Below are positions 2,021 through 42,385 of a stretch of DNA of 64,000 nucleotides, in pieces. The notes below the pieces were generated by a model, which was not told where the DNA came from, made no database searches, and saw only the letters and a program-made list of their open reading frames with translations. The position numbers and the translations under genes are program-made. Positions within the stretch are counted from its first letter, which is position 1; every line of letters begins with the position of its first letter. The DNA is from Verrucomicrobiota bacterium. GTDB lineage: Bacteria; Verrucomicrobiota; Kiritimatiellia; SS1-B-03-39; UBA6053. Where the stretch lies: the NCBI GenBank assembly GCA_020831625.1, contig JAFIGD010000015.1:1-64000 (forward strand), written 5' to 3'.

Positions 2021-4045
2021 ATGCATAAACTTTCATTCCGGCAGATTCACCTCGATTTCCATACCTCAGAGCACATTGAGGGCATTGGATGCGATTTTGA
2101 CAAAACCCGCTATCAAAAGACCCTGTCAGAGGCGCGGGTCGATTCTGTCACCACGTTTGCGACCTGTCATCACGGCTGGGCCTATTATCCCAGCCGGGTG
2201 GGGCCCGTGCATCCTCATTTAAAATTTGATTTGTTGCGCGCCCAGTATGATGCCTGCAAGGAAATCGGGATTAAGGTTCCTGTCTATTTAACCGCGGGGG
2301 TCAACAACAGGGCGGCGACCGCGCATCCGGAATGGCGGCAGTCCGGTCCGGACGGCAAACTGACCGGCTGGGCGGCCTCCAATATCGAGGCCGGATTTTT
2401 CTATATGTGTTTCAACACCGGTTACCTGGATTTCCTTTGTGACCAGCTTCGGGAGGTGGTTTCTTTATTTCCAGACAATGACGGGATATTTCTGGACATC
2501 ATCTCCCAGCCGGAATGTGTCTGCCATGCCTGTATTTCCTCCATGCATAAGCGGGGGCTTGATCCGCTGCTCCGGGAGGACCGTCAGACTCATTCCCGTT
2601 ATGTTCTGGAAAAATATTATCGGGAGACCACCGCTGCGGTTCGGAGCATTCGCCCGGACACGCCGGTTTTTCACAACAGCGGCCACATCACCCGGGGGGA
2701 CCGGAAAATTCTCGAGTTTTTCAGTCATTTGGAACTGGAATCGCTCCCGACCGGAGGCTGGGGGTACGATCATTTTCCCATTTCCGCAAAATACTGCGCC
2801 AATCTCCCGCACGATGTGTTGGGCATGACCGGAAAATTCCACACCACCTGGGGAGAATTCGGGGGGATTAAGCACCCCAACGCGTTGCGCTACGAATGTG
2901 CGCAAATGCTTGCCGTGGGCGCGAAATGCAGCGTGGGCGACCAGTTGCATCCCCGGGGGATGCTTGACCCCACCACCTACCGGGTGATCGGAGAGGCCTA
3001 CCGCGAGGTTGAGGTCAAGGAACCCTGGTGCAAAGATGTCCGGCAGGTTTCCGATATCGGGGTGATCAGTTGCGGGGCTGTCAATCCCGGTTCGTCCCGG
3101 GATCCCGCCGCCGACATCGGGGCGGGGCGTATTTTGCTGGAGGGGCAGTTTCTGTTTGATGTGCTTGACGCCGAAACCGATTTCCGCGGACGAAAGGCGC
3201 TGTTGCTGCCGGATGAGGTGCGGGTGGATGACGCGCTGAAAGCCCGCATCGACGACTTCCTGGCGGAGGGCGGGAAACTGATTCTTTCCGGAAGCAGCGG
3301 ACTCAATTCGAATCAGGACGGTTTCCTCTGGGACATCGGCGCGGAATACAGGGGTGTCAGCCCTTTTCAGCCGGATTATGTGCTTCCCGAAGAGGGCTTC
3401 CGGCCCGATTTTGTCCAGTCCCCGGTGGTGATGTATCTTCCCTCTCAGCGGATTCGTGTCACCGGCGGTTGTTCGCTGGGCGATATTTACGAACCGTATT
3501 TCAACCGAAGCTACAGACATTTCTCCTCCCACCAGCACGCGCCGAACCGTCCTGAACCCGGCGGGTATGCCGCCGGGGTGATGACCGGCAGCATCCTGTA
3601 TTTTGCCCACCCCGTTTTCAGCAATTACCGGGCCTACGGGGCGGTGGTGTACCGTCAGTTCATCACGCTGGCTCTGCGCCGGTTTTTAGAGGGTCGGGAA
3701 ACCGTGCGCAGCAACCTTCCCTCCACCGCCCGTCTGCATCTGAACCGTCAGGATTCAGAAAACCGCCACGTGCTGCACCTGCTGTACGCCAACACAATTT
3801 TACGGGGGGGCACGACCCGAATGGAGGGCGGGAATATCCGCAGCACTCAGGCGATTGAAGTGGTGGAGGAGCTTATGCCTCTTCGAAACACCACACTTGA
3901 CGTCAGACTCCCCGTGTCCATTCGCCGCGTCAGTCTGGAGCCCGAAGGTGTGGATATTCCCTTCGACACGGTGCCCGGTGGCATATCGTTCAGGGTTGAG
4001 TCCTTCACCTGCCATCAAATGATTTCACTGGAGCATGGGTTGTAA
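2021..4045 (+). CDS. GHL6-like glycoside hydrolase with beta-galactosidase trimerisation-type domain
   Basis: A 674-residue cytoplasmic-looking protein with no signal peptide; AAGGA lies 6 nt before the ATG. Residues about 1-340 look like a TIM barrel of the hypothetical glycosyl hydrolase 6 / alpha-amylase-like group: an HLDFHT start, a DGIFLDI strand with acidic residues near 154 and 159, then a Cys-x-Cys-x-x-Cys cluster at C166, C168 and C171. The middle (about 350-560) resembles the beta-galactosidase trimerisation domain (a flavodoxin-like fold with a LILSGSSG stretch). The substrate is unknown; the neighbouring GH31 and sulfatase suggest a plant or algal glycan. It lies 20 nt before the GH31 gene and is probably co-transcribed. 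A second full-length paralogue at 52647-54668 lacks the cysteine cluster. Confidence 0.7.
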   Translation: MHKLSFRQIHLDFHTSEHIEGIGCDFDKTRYQKTLSEARVDSVTTFATCHHGWAYYPSRVGPVHPHLKFDLLRAQYDACKEIGIKVPVYLTAGVNNRAATAHPEWRQSGPDGKLTGWAASNIEAGFFYMCFNTGYLDFLCDQLREVVSLFPDNDGIFLDIISQPECVCHACISSMHKRGLDPLLREDRQTHSRYVLEKYYRETTAAVRSIRPDTPVFHNSGHITRGDRKILEFFSHLELESLPTGGWGYDHFPISAKYCANLPHDVLGMTGKFHTTWGEFGGIKHPNALRYECAQMLAVGAKCSVGDQLHPRGMLDPTTYRVIGEAYREVEVKEPWCKDVRQVSDIGVISCGAVNPGSSRDPAADIGAGRILLEGQFLFDVLDAETDFRGRKALLLPDEVRVDDALKARIDDFLAEGGKLILSGSSGLNSNQDGFLWDIGAEYRGVSPFQPDYVLPEEGFRPDFVQSPVVMYLPSQRIRVTGGCSLGDIYEPYFNRSYRHFSSHQHAPNRPEPGGYAAGVMTGSILYFAHPVFSNYRAYGAVVYRQFITLALRRFLEGRETVRSNLPSTARLHLNRQDSENRHVLHLLYANTILRGGTTRMEGGNIRSTQAIEVVEELMPLRNTTLDVRLPVSIRRVSLEPEGVDIPFDTVPGGISFRVESFTCHQMISLEHGL

Positions 4046-12780: not shown

Positions 12781-15352
12781 ATGAATCCCGCATCGAATGC
12801 ATTCCGCTTCAACACCCTCACCTCTCTCTTTGCCGTTTCATTGCGCATGGGGACAGTTTGCGCCAGCACCGATACCCAAACGGCTTGGAACACGGGTTCC
12901 AAGCCGAATTTTATTTTTATTCTGAGCGACGACCAAGCCCCGGACACGGTGGGCGCCTGGGGCAATCCGGAGGTCAAAACCCCAAACCTTGACCGGCTTT
13001 CCGCGCAGGGCGTGAACTTCATGAAGGCCTACAATCCCGGCTCGTGGTCCCCCGCCGTTTGCATACCCAGCCGCACGATGTTTAACAGCGGCCTGCAGGT
13101 CTGGAGGTCGCAAGCGGCAGACCGGCAGAATGCGTTGGATATCTTCAAATTCTGGCCCCACGTGATGCGCGATGCCGGCTACGCGACCTACATGACGGGC
13201 AAGTGGCATCTTCAAGTGCCGGTCAGGGACGCGTACGAACATGTGCGCAACCCCAGGCCGGGCATGCCCTCGGTGCTTCCCGGTTCGCATCCGGACGCCT
13301 ACAATCGTCCGATCGAAGGGGTTGAAGATACCTGGGACCCCGCGGACCCGGGCCGGGGCGGTTTCTGGAGCGGCGGTAAGCATTGGTCTGAAGTTCTCGC
13401 CGACGACGCCGAAATTTTTCTCCAGCAGGCGTCGGAACGCGATGAGCCCTTTTTCATGTATCTCTCGTTCAGAACACTCCGTGCGCGCGCCTTTCATCAT
13501 CGCCGGACCCGGCATGGAGGCGGGCCGCCGCATTGAAGAGCGGATTTACATTCAGGACGCCGTGCCCACGGTCATGGACCTGGCCGGGGCGGAGATTCCC
13601 GCCCACGTGGACTTTAAAAGTCTGGTTCCCCTGATCCATAACGAAACGGCTCCGCATTATCCGGCAATCTATGGAGCCTACCGTCATGTGCAGCGCATGG
13701 TCATCGAGGACGACTGGAAGTTGATCGTTTATCCGAACGTGCCGATCGTTCGACTTTTCGACCTCGCAAACGACCCGCATGAGATGAACGACCTCGCCGG
13801 TGATGAAGGCCGGGAAGAGAGGATCCTCGATTTATTCAGCCGCCTGCAGACACTGCAGGCCGAGTTGGAGGACCCGCTAAACTTGAGCGGGTTCCCTCTG
13901 GATTTCTTTACCAACAGACCGCCAGAGGTTGAGGCCGGACCGGATCAGTCCGCCATCATTTCCGTTGAGGCTTCATGGTTTCCCTTAGGTGTTGAGGGGC
14001 TTGCCGGATGGTATGACGCCGGGGATGCCTACACGATCACCGCCGATGTCGGCGCCGTGAGTCAATGGGCGGACAAGAGCGGAAACGGGCTGGATTTGAG
14101 CCAGATGAATGCGGGCAGGCAGCCCGAAACCGGCACGGCGGAGATCAACGGAATCAATGCGTTGCGGTTTAACAGCCACACAATGCATACGGCCGGGAAC
14201 CCTTTCGGAGAGACGGTCGAGGATGCCTTTGTCATTGCCGTGCACAAAGTGGACGCTCTTGAAAACGGCACATTTTTCACGCTGACGGGTGGTTTGGGGC
14301 CGAATAATGTCAATCGCTGGCAGGGCCATGCGCCATGGAGCACCGGTGCTGTCTTTTTTGATACGGGAGGCATAAATGCCCCCTATCGTCTCACCACCTC
14401 CTATGGGGCGGGTGCGGGAGAGGATGTGATGGTCGGTTTCTACGGCAGCGCCACCGACAACGTGCAACAAATTTACAAAAACGGTGTGCTCCTGATTGAA
14501 GACAACAGCGGTCATTCGGTTTCCACGCTCGGCAGTATTTTCGTCGGCAGCGACGGCGGGGTCATGTTTCAAAACACCTCCGTCGGCGAGTTCATCATCG
14601 TCAACGGCACCGTCCGCGCTGATGACCGCACAAAACTCGAAGGCTATCTGGCCCACAAATGGGGGCTGGTCGGCGATCTCCCCGCCGCCCACCCTTACCG
14701 GGAATCGGCGCCCGGCGGCGGCAGGGCGCGGGTGAAGCTGGCGGGCACGGTCAGCGACCCCGACGGAAATCCGCTGACGACGGCCTGGAGCCAACAATCC
14801 GGCCCCGGCACGGTTTACTTTACCGACCCCTCGGCCATCGAAACCACCGCTTTTTTCCGCGTGGCCGGCACCTATGTTCTCCGCCTCACCGCGAATGACG
14901 GATTCCACACCGCCTTCGACGAACTCACCATCACCATTACCGGGGAAAGCTTCGTGGACGAGAACAACAATGGAATCCCCGACGAATGGGAACTGGACAA
15001 CTTCGGAGACCTCCTTGGCGAAAATGACACCCACCACGAAAGCGGAGCGGCCTATTATTTCCTCTATCTTTCCGGCTGGGAAGCCGGCGACCCGGTGGAC
15101 GATGCCGGCCGCATCGGGATTTTGCGTGAGTTCAACAGGTCAAACCCGGTGGTGGCCTGGGAATTCGTGGACGGCATTGAATTGGGCATTCATGTGAAGG
15201 TTTGGATCTCCACGGACCTTCTTGGCTGGGAACTCTTGCCGTCCGACCATTTCACACACACCAGCGAATCCAGTAATGGAAAAACCCGGCACGAACTGGA
15301 GGTCACACATGACTATGGCGCAAAATATTTCCTGCGACTCCAGAAACCTTAA
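12781..15352 (+). pseudogene. Secreted sulfatase with LamG and PKD-like domains, broken by an internal deletion and frameshift
   Basis: The first frame (12781-13536) encodes a signal peptide, sulfatase metal residues in LSDDQ and a formylglycine motif CIPSR at Cys94, up to FFMYLSF. At about 13470 the homology jumps into another frame at EHSVRAPFI, read through to 15352. Compared with the intact sulfatase at 7353, about 115 residues are missing, including the HDPR and ADHG active-site motifs, so the enzyme cannot work. The second part has the sulfatase end, a PKD-like strand (VEAGPDQ), a LamG-type domain (WYDA to KWGL), the rest of the PKD-like domain (LAGTVSDPDG), a Ca-binding ENNNGIPDEWE segment and a C-terminal beta domain ending RLQKP. 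It lies 82 nt after the other broken gene. Confidence 0.85.
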
Positions 15353-15372
15353 AAAGGCCTAAAAAAGAGGAT

Positions 15373-15626
15373 CGGAGCGACAGGATTGACGGGCTTCGCC
15401 CTCCCGCCACTTCGGGCGGGCCTACTCCGCTTCGCTCCGTTTCAAACCTGCTTCGCAGGTTCGAACCCTGTCGCGACGTTAGAGGAAGAAAAAGATGGTC
15501 GGAGCGACAGGATTGACGGGCTTCGCCCTCCCGCCACTTCGGGCGGGCCTACTCCGCTTCGCTCCGTTTCAAACCTGCTTCGCAGGTTCGAACCCTGTCG
15601 CGACGTTAGAGGAAGAAAAAGATGGT
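15373..15626. repeat. Two 127-bp tandem repeats each starting with the tRNA-Pro 3' end
   Basis: Units 15373-15499 and 15500-15626 are near-identical, and the phase continues into the tRNA at 15627. Each begins with the last nucleotides of the tRNA (CGGAGCGACAGGATT on the plus strand) and contains several small GC hairpins with CTTCG-type loops plus a second T-arm-like inverted word (GGTTCGAACC). On the tRNA strand the units lie immediately downstream of the tRNA and are separated by a T-rich stretch. Confidence 0.85.
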
Positions 15627-15699
15627 CGGAGCGACAGGATTCGAACCTGCGACCCCTTGCCCCCCAGGCAAGTGCTCTACCAGGCTGAGCCACGCTCCG
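15623..15699 (-). tRNA. tRNA-Pro (anticodon GGG)
   Basis: A 77-nt cloverleaf read on the minus strand: acceptor CGGAGCG pairs with CGCTCCG; D-arm GCTC/GAGC; anticodon stem CTTGC/GCAAG with loop CTGGGGG, anticodon GGG; T-arm GCAGG TTCGAAT CCTGT; discriminator A and encoded CCA. It lies 67 nt downstream of lysA on the same strand. The 127-bp repeats begin at its 3' end. Confidence 0.95.
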
Positions 15700-15766
15700 A
15701 CCGAGGACCTGTGTGAATATGGATCTGTTTCTGAATTGCAATCGAAAAGACGTTTAAATTTCGAGG

Positions 15767-17026
15767 TCAGACTTCGAGGGCCCAGATGTCGTCGAGGGAC
15801 TGGCGTTTGCGGATAAGCTCCGCCTGGCCCTTGGCGGTGAGGAGGACTTCGGGACTGGCGGGAAAGGAATTATAGTTGCGGGTGCTCATGGAGGAGCAGT
15901 AGGCGCCAACGCCTTCGATAACCGCATAGTCGCCGATTTCGGCGAGGAGCACATCGCGCGGGGCGAGGGCTTCGGGATCGCCGGGGGCGGGGGTGAGGAT
16001 GTCGCCGGACTCGCAGCAGTGGCCGACGAGAATGACCTCGGCTTCGGGGCGTTCGGGTCCGTCGGTCCGGGGAATCACCACGAGGGGATGCTGCGCACCG
16101 TAGAGCGAGGGGCGGAGAACATCGGTCATGCCGGTGTCGAGGCGGTAGAAGAGGTATCCGTCCTCTCCGGTGTCGATGACATCCTGAATGCGGCTGATGA
16201 TGGAGGCGGAATTGGCGACGAGGTAGGTGCCGGGTTCGATTTCGAGCTTCAGTTGGCGGCCGGTTTCGGCTGCGAAGGCTTCGAACGCGGCTTTGACGGG
16301 GGCTCCGACCTCCTGGAGGTTGGTTGATTTTTCGGTGCTCATGCGGGCGACTTTGAAGCCGCCGCCCATGTCGAGGGTGTGGACATCGGGGAAGCGGCGG
16401 ACCTGTTTGAGGCTGAGGAGGGCGACGCGCTGCCAGACGGCGGGGTCGCTGCCGCTGCCGATGTGGGTGTGGATGCGGACGCAGGTGAGATTGTGTTTTT
16501 CCAGGAGATCGCTGGCCTGATCGGCGTATTCGTGCCAGATGCCGAAGGAGCTGGCGGGGCCGCCGACGTTGGTGCGGTTGGTGCCGCCGGAGCCGAGGCC
16601 GGGGTTGAAGCGGAGGCCGATTTCGATGCCGGGGCGGGCTTCGCCGGCGACCCGGATCTGGTTGAGGCTGGTGGCGTTGAAGAGAACCCCCATGTCGAGG
16701 AGTTCGCCGAGGTTTTCGGGAAGTTCCTGCGCGCTGAGGGATATGTGCGCTGCGGGAATCCCTGCGGCAAGGGCGCGGGCAACCTCGTGACCGGAGCTGG
16801 CGTCGATGTGGAGCCCCATCTCACTGAAAATTTTAAGAATCCGCCGGTTGGGGCTGGCTTTCATGGCGTAGCGGACGGTGAGTCCGTAGGCGTTGGGAAA
16901 GTCCAGCGCCTCGGCGGCGCGCTGCCGGAGGGTTTGTTCGTCGTAGACGTAGAGGGGCGTGCCGTGGGCGGCGGCGAGATCGCGGGTTTGCTCCGCGGAC
17001 AAAAAGCGGGTGGTTTCAAGGTGCAT
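15767..17026 (-). CDS. lysA: Diaminopimelate decarboxylase
   Basis: A 419-residue PLP enzyme of fold type III catalysing meso-diaminopimelate to L-lysine, the last step of lysine synthesis. The PLP lysine lies in YAMKASP, the phosphate-binding glycine motif is DMGGGF, and the family signature is the CESGD motif, which supplies the active-site Cys across the dimer. The reading frame stays open far upstream, but homology begins at MHLETTRF, so the ATG at 17024-17026 is used; no Shine-Dalgarno is visible. It is transcribed away from the HAD gene at 17081, with a 54-nt intergenic region. Length and motifs are normal for the family, though some relatives decarboxylate other substrates such as carboxynorspermidine. 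Confidence 0.85.
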   Translation of the reverse strand: MHLETTRFLSAEQTRDLAAAHGTPLYVYDEQTLRQRAAEALDFPNAYGLTVRYAMKASPNRRILKIFSEMGLHIDASSGHEVARALAAGIPAAHISLSAQELPENLGELLDMGVLFNATSLNQIRVAGEARPGIEIGLRFNPGLGSGGTNRTNVGGPASSFGIWHEYADQASDLLEKHNLTCVRIHTHIGSGSDPAVWQRVALLSLKQVRRFPDVHTLDMGGGFKVARMSTEKSTNLQEVGAPVKAAFEAFAAETGRQLKLEIEPGTYLVANSASIISRIQDVIDTGEDGYLFYRLDTGMTDVLRPSLYGAQHPLVVIPRTDGPERPEAEVILVGHCCESGDILTPAPGDPEALAPRDVLLAEIGDYAVIEGVGAYCSSMSTRNYNSFPASPEVLLTAKGQAELIRKRQSLDDIWALEV

Positions 17027-39876: not shown

Positions 39877-40919
39877 TGCCCTCCGCCGCGCCCCGCCTGG
39901 ACCATCCGCTCCTGCCCTTGCTGCGGACCCTGGGCCGCGAGGCGCGGGCGGTGGTGCTGCGGGTGCTGCGGGAGGTTCCGGTGGAGGAGCGCGCCTCGGA
40001 GGGCGGGCATTGCGGATCGGATGTGATCTATGCGATTGACCGCGAGGTGGAGGAGGCCTTGCTGCGGCGGCTGGCGTCGGATGCGGAGGCACTCGGCGGC
40101 ATTGTGCTGATCGCGGAGGGGATTGGCGAGGATGAACTGACCGTACATCCGTCGCATTTCCGGGAGGCGGATTGCCGGTGGCGACTGCTGGTGGATCCGA
40201 TTGACGGAACGCGGCCGATCATGATGGACAAGCGGTCGGCCTGGTTTTTGGCGGGGGCGGCACCGAACCGGGGGGCGGAGACCCGCCTGAAAGATATCGA
40301 GTGCGCGGTGATGGCCGAGTTGCCGACCACGCGGGCAGCGGTGGCGGATGATTTCGCGGCGGTGCGCGGGCGGGGTGTGACCGCCGAACGGGTGGAGCTG
40401 GTGCGGGAGGGGCTTGAACCGAAAATGTGGGAGCCCAAGCCGTGGGCGGGCGATTCAATCCGGGGCGGATTTGTGCAGATGGTCCGCTTTTGTCCGCCGG
40501 GACGTGATTTGCTGGCGGAACTGGAGGAGACGCTGATTGCCCGCCTGTTTCCGGATGCGAAACCCGGTGAGATTCTGAGCTTTGAGGATCAGTATCCCAG
40601 CACCGGCGGTCAGTTGGTTGAACTCATGTGCGGGCGGGACCGGTTCAATGCGGATTTGCGCGGAACGCTCTACCGCTCGGCGCGGTTCGCGGACCGGCGC
40701 ATCGGGCATGTGTGCCATCCCTACGATTTGGCGGGAGCGCTGGTGGCGCAGGAGGCGGGAGTGCTGCTGACCACCGCCGCCGGCTCCGAGTTTGACGGAC
40801 CGTTCGACACCCGTTCGGCGATGGACTGGATCGGGTATCCGAACCCGGCGATCCGCGAAGAGGTGGAGTCAACGCTTTTGGCGTTGGTGAAAGAGCGGTT
40901 TGCTGAGAGTGACGAGTGA
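39876..40919 (+). CDS. Inositol-monophosphatase-like phosphatase
   Basis: A 347-residue protein related to the FIG/IMPase superfamily of Mg-dependent sugar and inositol phosphatases. The central signature DPIDGTRPIM is present, an acidic metal-binding IAEGIG region precedes it, and a late HVCHPYDLAGAL replaces the usual WDxAAG, so it is an unusual member and its substrate is uncertain. The ATG shares a base with the GH3 stop, so the genes are co-expressed. The last codons (SDE, stop) fall in the start of a 14-nt tandem repeat that may have changed the native end. Confidence 0.68.
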   Translation: MPSAAPRLDHPLLPLLRTLGREARAVVLRVLREVPVEERASEGGHCGSDVIYAIDREVEEALLRRLASDAEALGGIVLIAEGIGEDELTVHPSHFREADCRWRLLVDPIDGTRPIMMDKRSAWFLAGAAPNRGAETRLKDIECAVMAELPTTRAAVADDFAAVRGRGVTAERVELVREGLEPKMWEPKPWAGDSIRGGFVQMVRFCPPGRDLLAELEETLIARLFPDAKPGEILSFEDQYPSTGGQLVELMCGRDRFNADLRGTLYRSARFADRRIGHVCHPYDLAGALVAQEAGVLLTTAAGSEFDGPFDTRSAMDWIGYPNPAIREEVESTLLALVKERFAESDE

Positions 40920-40967
40920 CGAGTGACGAATGACGAGTGACGAATGACGAGTGACGAATGACGAGTG
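40908..40967. repeat. Tandem TGACGAGTGACGAA-type repeat array
   Basis: About four copies of a 14-nt unit made of TGACGAG and TGACGAA halves. The first copy supplies the stop of the phosphatase gene. Related short arrays occur at 17846-17868, 18085-18103 and 42352-42385. Confidence 0.85.
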
Positions 40968-42351: not shown

Positions 42352-42385
42352 ATGAGTGACGAATGACGAGTGACGAATGACGAGT
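42352..42385. repeat. Second TGACGAATGACGAG tandem array
   Basis: Two and a half copies of the same 14-nt unit as at 40908-40967, in the same position relative to the PEP-CTERM 3' end. Confidence 0.8.

Follow-up and report, generated by a model that had tools for sequence, protein, structure and literature searches.

A tandem array of divergent RtT-like units behind a tRNA-Pro gene of a Kiritimatiellota bacterium

The repeats of the tyrT locus of Escherichia coli have been recognized for decades, and we know of no explanation of their purpose. Strain K-12 has four units, of which one separates tyrT from tyrV and the other three follow tyrV, and the annotated RttR RNA, 171 nt long, has its end exactly at the CCA of the unit. 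RtT RNAs are described as being freed from tRNA transcripts, and they have been detected by Northern blotting in Actinobacillus (PMC4986893); the same article relays that release during tRNA processing and modulation of the stringent response were reported for E. coli. Furthermore, RtT RNA is cold-induced in Thioalkalivibrio (PMC8092127), and the rtT of Salmonella is listed as a 122-bp VNTR (PMC2658671).

The window analyzed here is a 64,000-nt stretch of contig JAFIGD010000015.1 (assembly GCA_020831625.1) from an uncultured Kiritimatiellota bacterium. It carries a minus-strand tRNA-Pro(GGG) gene followed on its 3' side, with no gap, by two 127-nt units (15369-15622; Table 1). The original prediction had described a tandem of two 127-bp units phased with tRNA-Pro, each with an inverted T-arm-like word, several hairpins and a T-rich tail, and all of these elements were recovered, with the tRNA placed on the minus strand. 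The array is by far the top-scoring TRF array of the window (period 127, 2.2 copies, 98% matches, score 546), its two copies being 98% identical to each other, and a 26-nt element recurs at spacings of 127 and 127 with the tRNA end itself included, so that the tRNA is in register with the array. The inverted word was found as a 22-nt inverted repeat (95% complementary) between the tRNA and the unit. The parts of each unit follow in the same order as in E. coli K-12: an 18-nt T-rich spacer, segment A leading into the inverted T-arm copy, hairpin H1, a 53-nt core (M) and segment B. Two open reading frames of the window, 15386-15688 on the plus strand (SERQDSNLRPLAP) and 15442-15741 on the minus strand (SVAQPGRALAWGARGRRFESCRSD), are the translated tRNA and repeats and are likely to be an annotation trap. 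Elsewhere in the window, two arrays of one 14-base unit (GAGTGACGAATGAC) lie 1.4 kb apart (40907-40967 and 42354-42385).

Table 1. Components of the tRNA-Pro(GGG) array, in coordinates of the window
Feature	Position	Strand	Evidence
tRNA-Pro(GGG), CCA encoded at 15623-15625	15623-15699	-	ARAGORN; Rfam tRNA 63.7 bits
Proximal RtT-like unit, 127 nt, spacer through CCA	15496-15622	-	Repeats; RtT 36.5 bits, full length; R1 112.8 bits
Proximal T-rich spacer, without classical terminator hairpin	15605-15622	-	Sequence; promoter/terminator scan
Proximal segment A (GCGACAGG), complementary to B and to the tRNA's own 3' strand	15594-15601	-	Inverted repeats, folding
Proximal H1 hairpin (TTCGAACCTGC-GAA-GCAGGTTTGAA), inverted plus direct T-arm copy	15568-15592	-	Sequence, folding
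Proximal core M (ACGGAGCGAAGCGGAGTAGG + hairpin CCCGCC/GGCGGG + GGGCGAAGCCC)	15515-15567	-	Sequence, folding; hairpin covariation in relatives
Proximal segment B, final 19 nt of the tRNA including CCA (AATCCTGTCGCTCCGACCA)	15496-15514	-	Repeats, sequence
Distal RtT-like unit, 127 nt, 98% identical, ATCC replacing ACCA	15369-15495	-	Repeats; RtT 32.4 bits; R1 105.6 bits
Distal T-rich spacer	15478-15495	-	Sequence
Distal segment A	15467-15474	-	Sequence
Distal H1	15441-15465	-	Sequence
Distal core M	15388-15440	-	Sequence
Distal segment B (AATCCTGTCGCTCCGATCC)	15369-15387	-	Sequence
TCTTTTTTAGGCCTTTTT after the array; identical 18 nt after the orphan unit on contig C7 of the window genome	15351-15368	-	Sequence

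The Rfam RtT model (RF00391) aligns with both window units from end to end (model positions 1-130 of 130; E=1e-5 for the proximal and 1.1e-4 for the distal unit). These scores lie under the curated gathering cut-off of 45 bits, as do those of all 11 family genomes (0/11 reach it), and part of every RtT score is due to tRNA-derived sequence common to both. All five matches with E≤0.01 in the 11 family genomes are units behind a tRNA. The proximal unit stands directly 3' of the tRNA and ends in its 3' end with CCA, and the distal copy ends in ATCC. The similarity is reciprocal: a model built solely from Kiritimatiellota units (R1) picks out each of the four tyrT/tyrV units of the 2.7-kb E. coli locus, with 32.7, 21.1, 20.1, and 17.3 bits (E of 2.3e-5 to 0.09 in a 116-kb search), the best being individually strong and the other three weak, while the RtT model itself gives these four 133-138 bits. 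It is thus well supported, on the strength of these sequence comparisons, that the window units are of a known kind, in a divergent form and in hosts without annotation at the Rfam cut-off. Because this kinship is well supported but the scores are below the cut-off, we call the units RtT-like and do not treat them as formal Rfam members. The kind was already known; the variant and its hosts are new. The prediction of a "tRNA-associated repeat" with tRNA-like, processable ends was right in that the unit is of the RtT type, and the end of the annotated E. coli RNA at the unit CCA agrees with it.

The family sample comprised 11 genomes, including Kiritimatiellota bacterium B12222 (CP120722.1; G008), UBA6053 (G005) and a PVC MAG (G003). 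In every family array, segment B is the host tRNA's own end, and A and H1 track the T-arm of the same tRNA. Among the 81 CCA-ending tRNA genes of the window genome (G000) and the complete relative G008, a near copy of the gene's own 3' end was found within 300 nt downstream of six, each of these being a unit, and comparison of the ends of other tRNAs with unit-free downstream regions gave matches in 8 of 6075 pairings, so that the copies are not there by chance. In G008 five tRNA genes bear units, namely Pro-GGG, Pro-CGG, Pro-UGG, Ser-GGA, and Thr-UGU, the window genome has them at Pro-GGG only, and G003 has one unit behind Ser-UGA. Comparison of copy number in relatives and a search behind other tRNA genes, both proposed originally, thus gave 2 units at the window array and 1 to 5 at other family arrays, located behind Pro (GGG, CGG, UGG), Ser, and Thr tRNAs. 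The Pro-UGG array of G008 consists of five tandem copies; since this relative is a complete, one-contig genome, the tandem is no assembly artefact in kind, the two units of the window being the number as assembled in a MAG. The genes flanking the window array have no orthologue beside the arrays of the relatives. A Thr-type unit array without an adjoining tRNA gene, possibly another orphan, was noticed in another family contig (L342; G004:C78, about 1480-1700).

Most units share a common fold, composed of an A:B helix of about 8-11 bp, H1, the core hairpins and an unpaired 3' NCCA tail. Across 13 units, 79.8% of the cells of A:B and H1 are paired, compared with 35-50% in slid registers, and their covariation is 0.369 vs 0.145 in shuffled alignments (0/500 shuffles as high), although the A:B complementarity may be due to origin, A resembling an inverted tRNA copy, and not to selection. 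The core hairpin is not derived from the tRNA. In nine variants, all cells (100%) are paired and five of the six pairs differ on both sides, and covariation reaches 0.815 vs 0.193 in shuffles (0/500). The small GC-GNA-GC element is supported as a hairpin because longer hairpins replace it at the same place in two relatives (AGCCGC-GCA-GCGGCT and AACCG-TATAG-CGGTT). Taken singly, a window unit is moderately more stable than its shuffles (z -2.3).

When the tRNA is folded together with the two units, segment A pairs at equilibrium with the tRNA and not with B (expected number of pairs, 7.9 of 8), and the T-stem disappears, so that release of an intact tRNA would depend on co-transcriptional folding. 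Given this calculated fold, either the tRNA folds first or else the unit would interfere with it. The same ensemble, together with the 22-nt inverted repeat, is what would be expected of an anti-tRNA competitor, in which A and the inverted T-arm pair with the T-arm and acceptor of the nascent tRNA and tune its folding or maturation, with B sequestering A. We regard such a role as quite improbable: the calculation ignores the fact that the tRNA folds first in transcription and in three dimensions, and the RtT consensus (AUGAGAACC) is less complementary than a perfect anti-T-arm (AUUCGAACC).

A further alternative is that the units terminate transcription of the tRNA operon or mark its boundary. 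Such a function is suggested by the T-rich spacers and by relatives with an intrinsic terminator behind the tRNA, in which the terminator was duplicated along with the units; moreover, certain terminator-like elements of Enterobacteria resemble rtT and overlap BIMEs (PMC2965389). Against this, a promoter and terminator scan of positions 15200-15900 of the window found nothing, including no terminator-like site, and where terminators exist they precede the unit, which is then not needed for termination, so that we consider this reading improbable. In some relatives the spacer itself forms a strong intrinsic terminator; this would hold back transcription beyond the tRNA and so counts against the units being read together with it. 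Most tRNA genes of the window genome and G008 (L214-L295) have a T run straight after the encoded CCA, often accompanied by a terminator hairpin.

The original prediction also proposed that the units resemble serial integration scars. On this reading, each unit would be the residue of a mobile element whose insertion at the 3' end of the tRNA produced a direct repeat of that end. The 19-nt tRNA 3' end is indeed repeated directly in tandem, and these tRNAs are integration targets. In five genomes (contig C7 of the window genome, G001, G003, G007, and G010), a unit or what remains of one follows a tRNA 3' half whose start lies near the anticodon loop, and in two of them, G001 and G007, a gene for a tyrosine recombinase is the immediate neighbour (PF00589, E=5.8e-16 and 2.9e-18). 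We read these orphans as the right-hand ends of islands that severed the tRNA from its array. However, because the islands cut the tRNA at the anticodon loop, leave half a tRNA and carry the unit with them, the units ride along as passengers of integration and are not its product. Furthermore, the stretch between the repeats holds no decaying element remnants, but a conserved fold (A:B, H1, core hairpin) that recurs at many tRNAs in three bacterial groups, and its 127 nt contain no recombinase or other plausible gene. The scar reading is therefore very improbable. The intact tRNA-Pro(GGG) of G007 is without a unit. Two loci with tyrosine recombinase genes adjoining displaced tRNA-Pro 3' halves were recorded (L301, 6219-7838; L302, 10584-12092), and the island of L302 also carries type I restriction-modification genes and an AbiEii toxin-like gene.

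The core is doubled or tripled within some units and occurs twice in a group II intron region of G007 (Rfam group-II-D1D4 matches); these copies lie in the non-coding part of the intron, inside or beside the D1D4 matches (L298, G007:C95:1-8000, minus strand, 3483-3563 and about 3723-3784). In addition, the nearest relative of a core is often found behind a different tRNA, as in G000 Pro-GGG and G001 Pro-CGG (96%), G010 Pro-GGG and Pro-UGG (97%), and G008 Pro-GGG and G010 Thr (92%). This pattern suggests exchange between arrays. Together with the multiplied cores and the copies in the intron, it would also suit a tRNA-parasitic mobile repeat, whose units or cores move among tRNA genes while A, H1 and B are rewritten for each tRNA, for example by strand switching or gene conversion at the T-arm. 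Such a repeat would explain why every unit bears the end and T-arm of its own tRNA, and the G008 Pro-CGG array, in which segment A and its own B are imperfectly matched (A.A mismatch), looks as if imported. Yet no mobilizing enzyme was found and no insertion event caught, a search of phage and plasmid records for similar DNA gave none, and the mean core identity, which by itself is no proof of movement between tRNAs, fails to separate same-genome from same-tRNA pairs (0.736 vs 0.716). We keep this explanation as a possible one, on the unlikely side.

The core motif was rejected as a diagnostic sequence, its matches across genomes being mostly unrelated palindromic repeats in other phyla. The motif ACGNAGCGNAGCGGAGTARG (both N free) occurs in palindromic intergenic repeats of Gemmataceae, Singulisphaera, Geobacillus/Anoxybacillus, Clostridia, Marithrix, and Sulfuricaulis, at loci spanning many phyla (L101-L179, e.g., L131, L159, L167, and L175), and the GC-GNA-GC mini-hairpin may explain its recurrence. 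R1 matches in Marithrix and an acidobacterial MAG (G294 and G295) were likewise discarded as motif-driven and not behind tRNAs.

The distribution of the units was estimated from sampled genomes with strict filters, and the following counts are lower bounds. Across the phylum, R1 gave matches in 13 of 388 genomes, other families included, mostly behind Ser, Pro, Thr, and Met tRNAs. In a gammaproteobacterial class, the RtT model found matches in 50 of 274 genomes, 18 of them above the cut-off, with the inspected loci mostly behind Ser, Gln, Tyr or other tRNAs. In the phylum to which a deltaproteobacterial MAG belongs, it matched 2 of 297 genomes, each time beside tRNA-Ser, and it matched none of 294 Planctomycetota genomes. 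As judged by these matches, tRNAs of at least six kinds (Ser, Tyr, Gln, Thr, Pro, and Met) are followed by related units in three bacterial groups, each unit matching its host tRNA. Among 5,426 complete E. coli genomes, those with any match have 1 to 9 matching places (median 2), an approximate number since pieces were joined.

We consider it likely that the window units are divergent RtT-type repeats, co-read with tRNA-Pro and freed at the CCAs, in an array resized and kept matched to the tRNA by recombination between tRNA ends. This reading starts from the observed anatomy, a fold with compensatory change in the core, reciprocal similarity to RtT, the match to the host tRNA and differences in copy number. 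In the window organism, the array would be transcribed together with tRNA-Pro, and each unit would form a rod closed by A:B, with B equivalent to the 3' strand of the T-stem and acceptor of the tRNA and the NCCA tail left free. The tRNA 3'-processing machinery would then trim at every encoded CCA, yielding the tRNA as well as unit RNAs no longer than about 127 nt. The simplest cause of the growth and shrinkage of the array, and of its lasting match to the tRNA, would be recombination among the repeated tRNA ends. By analogy with what has been proposed for the E. coli RtT RNA, the product may be a by-product or a weak regulatory small RNA. A more far-reaching view, which we regard as rather unlikely, is that RtT-type units are selfish, tRNA-tagged RNA elements common to several phyla, in which a mobile hairpin core lodges in loops within structured RNAs, such as the T-arm copy behind a tRNA or the non-coding portion of a group II intron, has its ends rewritten to the T-arm and CCA of the host and is excised harmlessly by tRNA enzymes.

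The anatomy of the tyrT repeats is thus found again in Verrucomicrobiota/Kiritimatiellota, in roughly a fifth of the genomes sampled from a gammaproteobacterial class and in a third phylum, and what was a curiosity of a single operon becomes a general phenomenon. The arrays form a comparative data set for choosing among a selfish repeat, a processing by-product and a regulator, and they warn annotators of spurious reading frames and missed RNAs beside tRNA genes.

Among known systems, REP/BIME-type palindromic repeats (GCGNAGC) have the core motif ACGNAGCGNAGCGGAGTARG in common with the units but lack the tRNA end and the A:B closure. They are dispersed, numerous and tRNA-independent, whereas the units sit behind tRNAs or displaced tRNA halves, and the core (≤1 mismatch) occupies only three places in the 4.9-Mb window genome, two in the array and one in an orphan. 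With tRNA-integrated genomic islands (attR fragments) the units share direct repeats of tRNA 3' sequence. Such islands duplicate the tRNA from the anticodon loop and carry integrases, and an attR extends from the recombinase crossover and adjoins an element that encodes a recombinase; the units, in contrast, repeat no more than the final 19 nt, begin at the T-loop and are gene-free. The closest system is RtT RNA (RF00391; RNA RttR). Unlike the E. coli units, which follow tRNA-Tyr, those of the window follow tRNA-Pro in Kiritimatiellota, measure 127 nt (vs a repeat of 178 nt), have GTTCGAAC in place of ATGAGAAC in the T-loop part of A and score under the Rfam cut-off. Both have the order of spacer, inverted T-arm, T-arm hairpin, multi-hairpin core (GNA or GNNA loops) and tRNA 3' end with CCA, both stand in tandem right behind a tRNA with a varying copy number, and the models built from each recognize the other.
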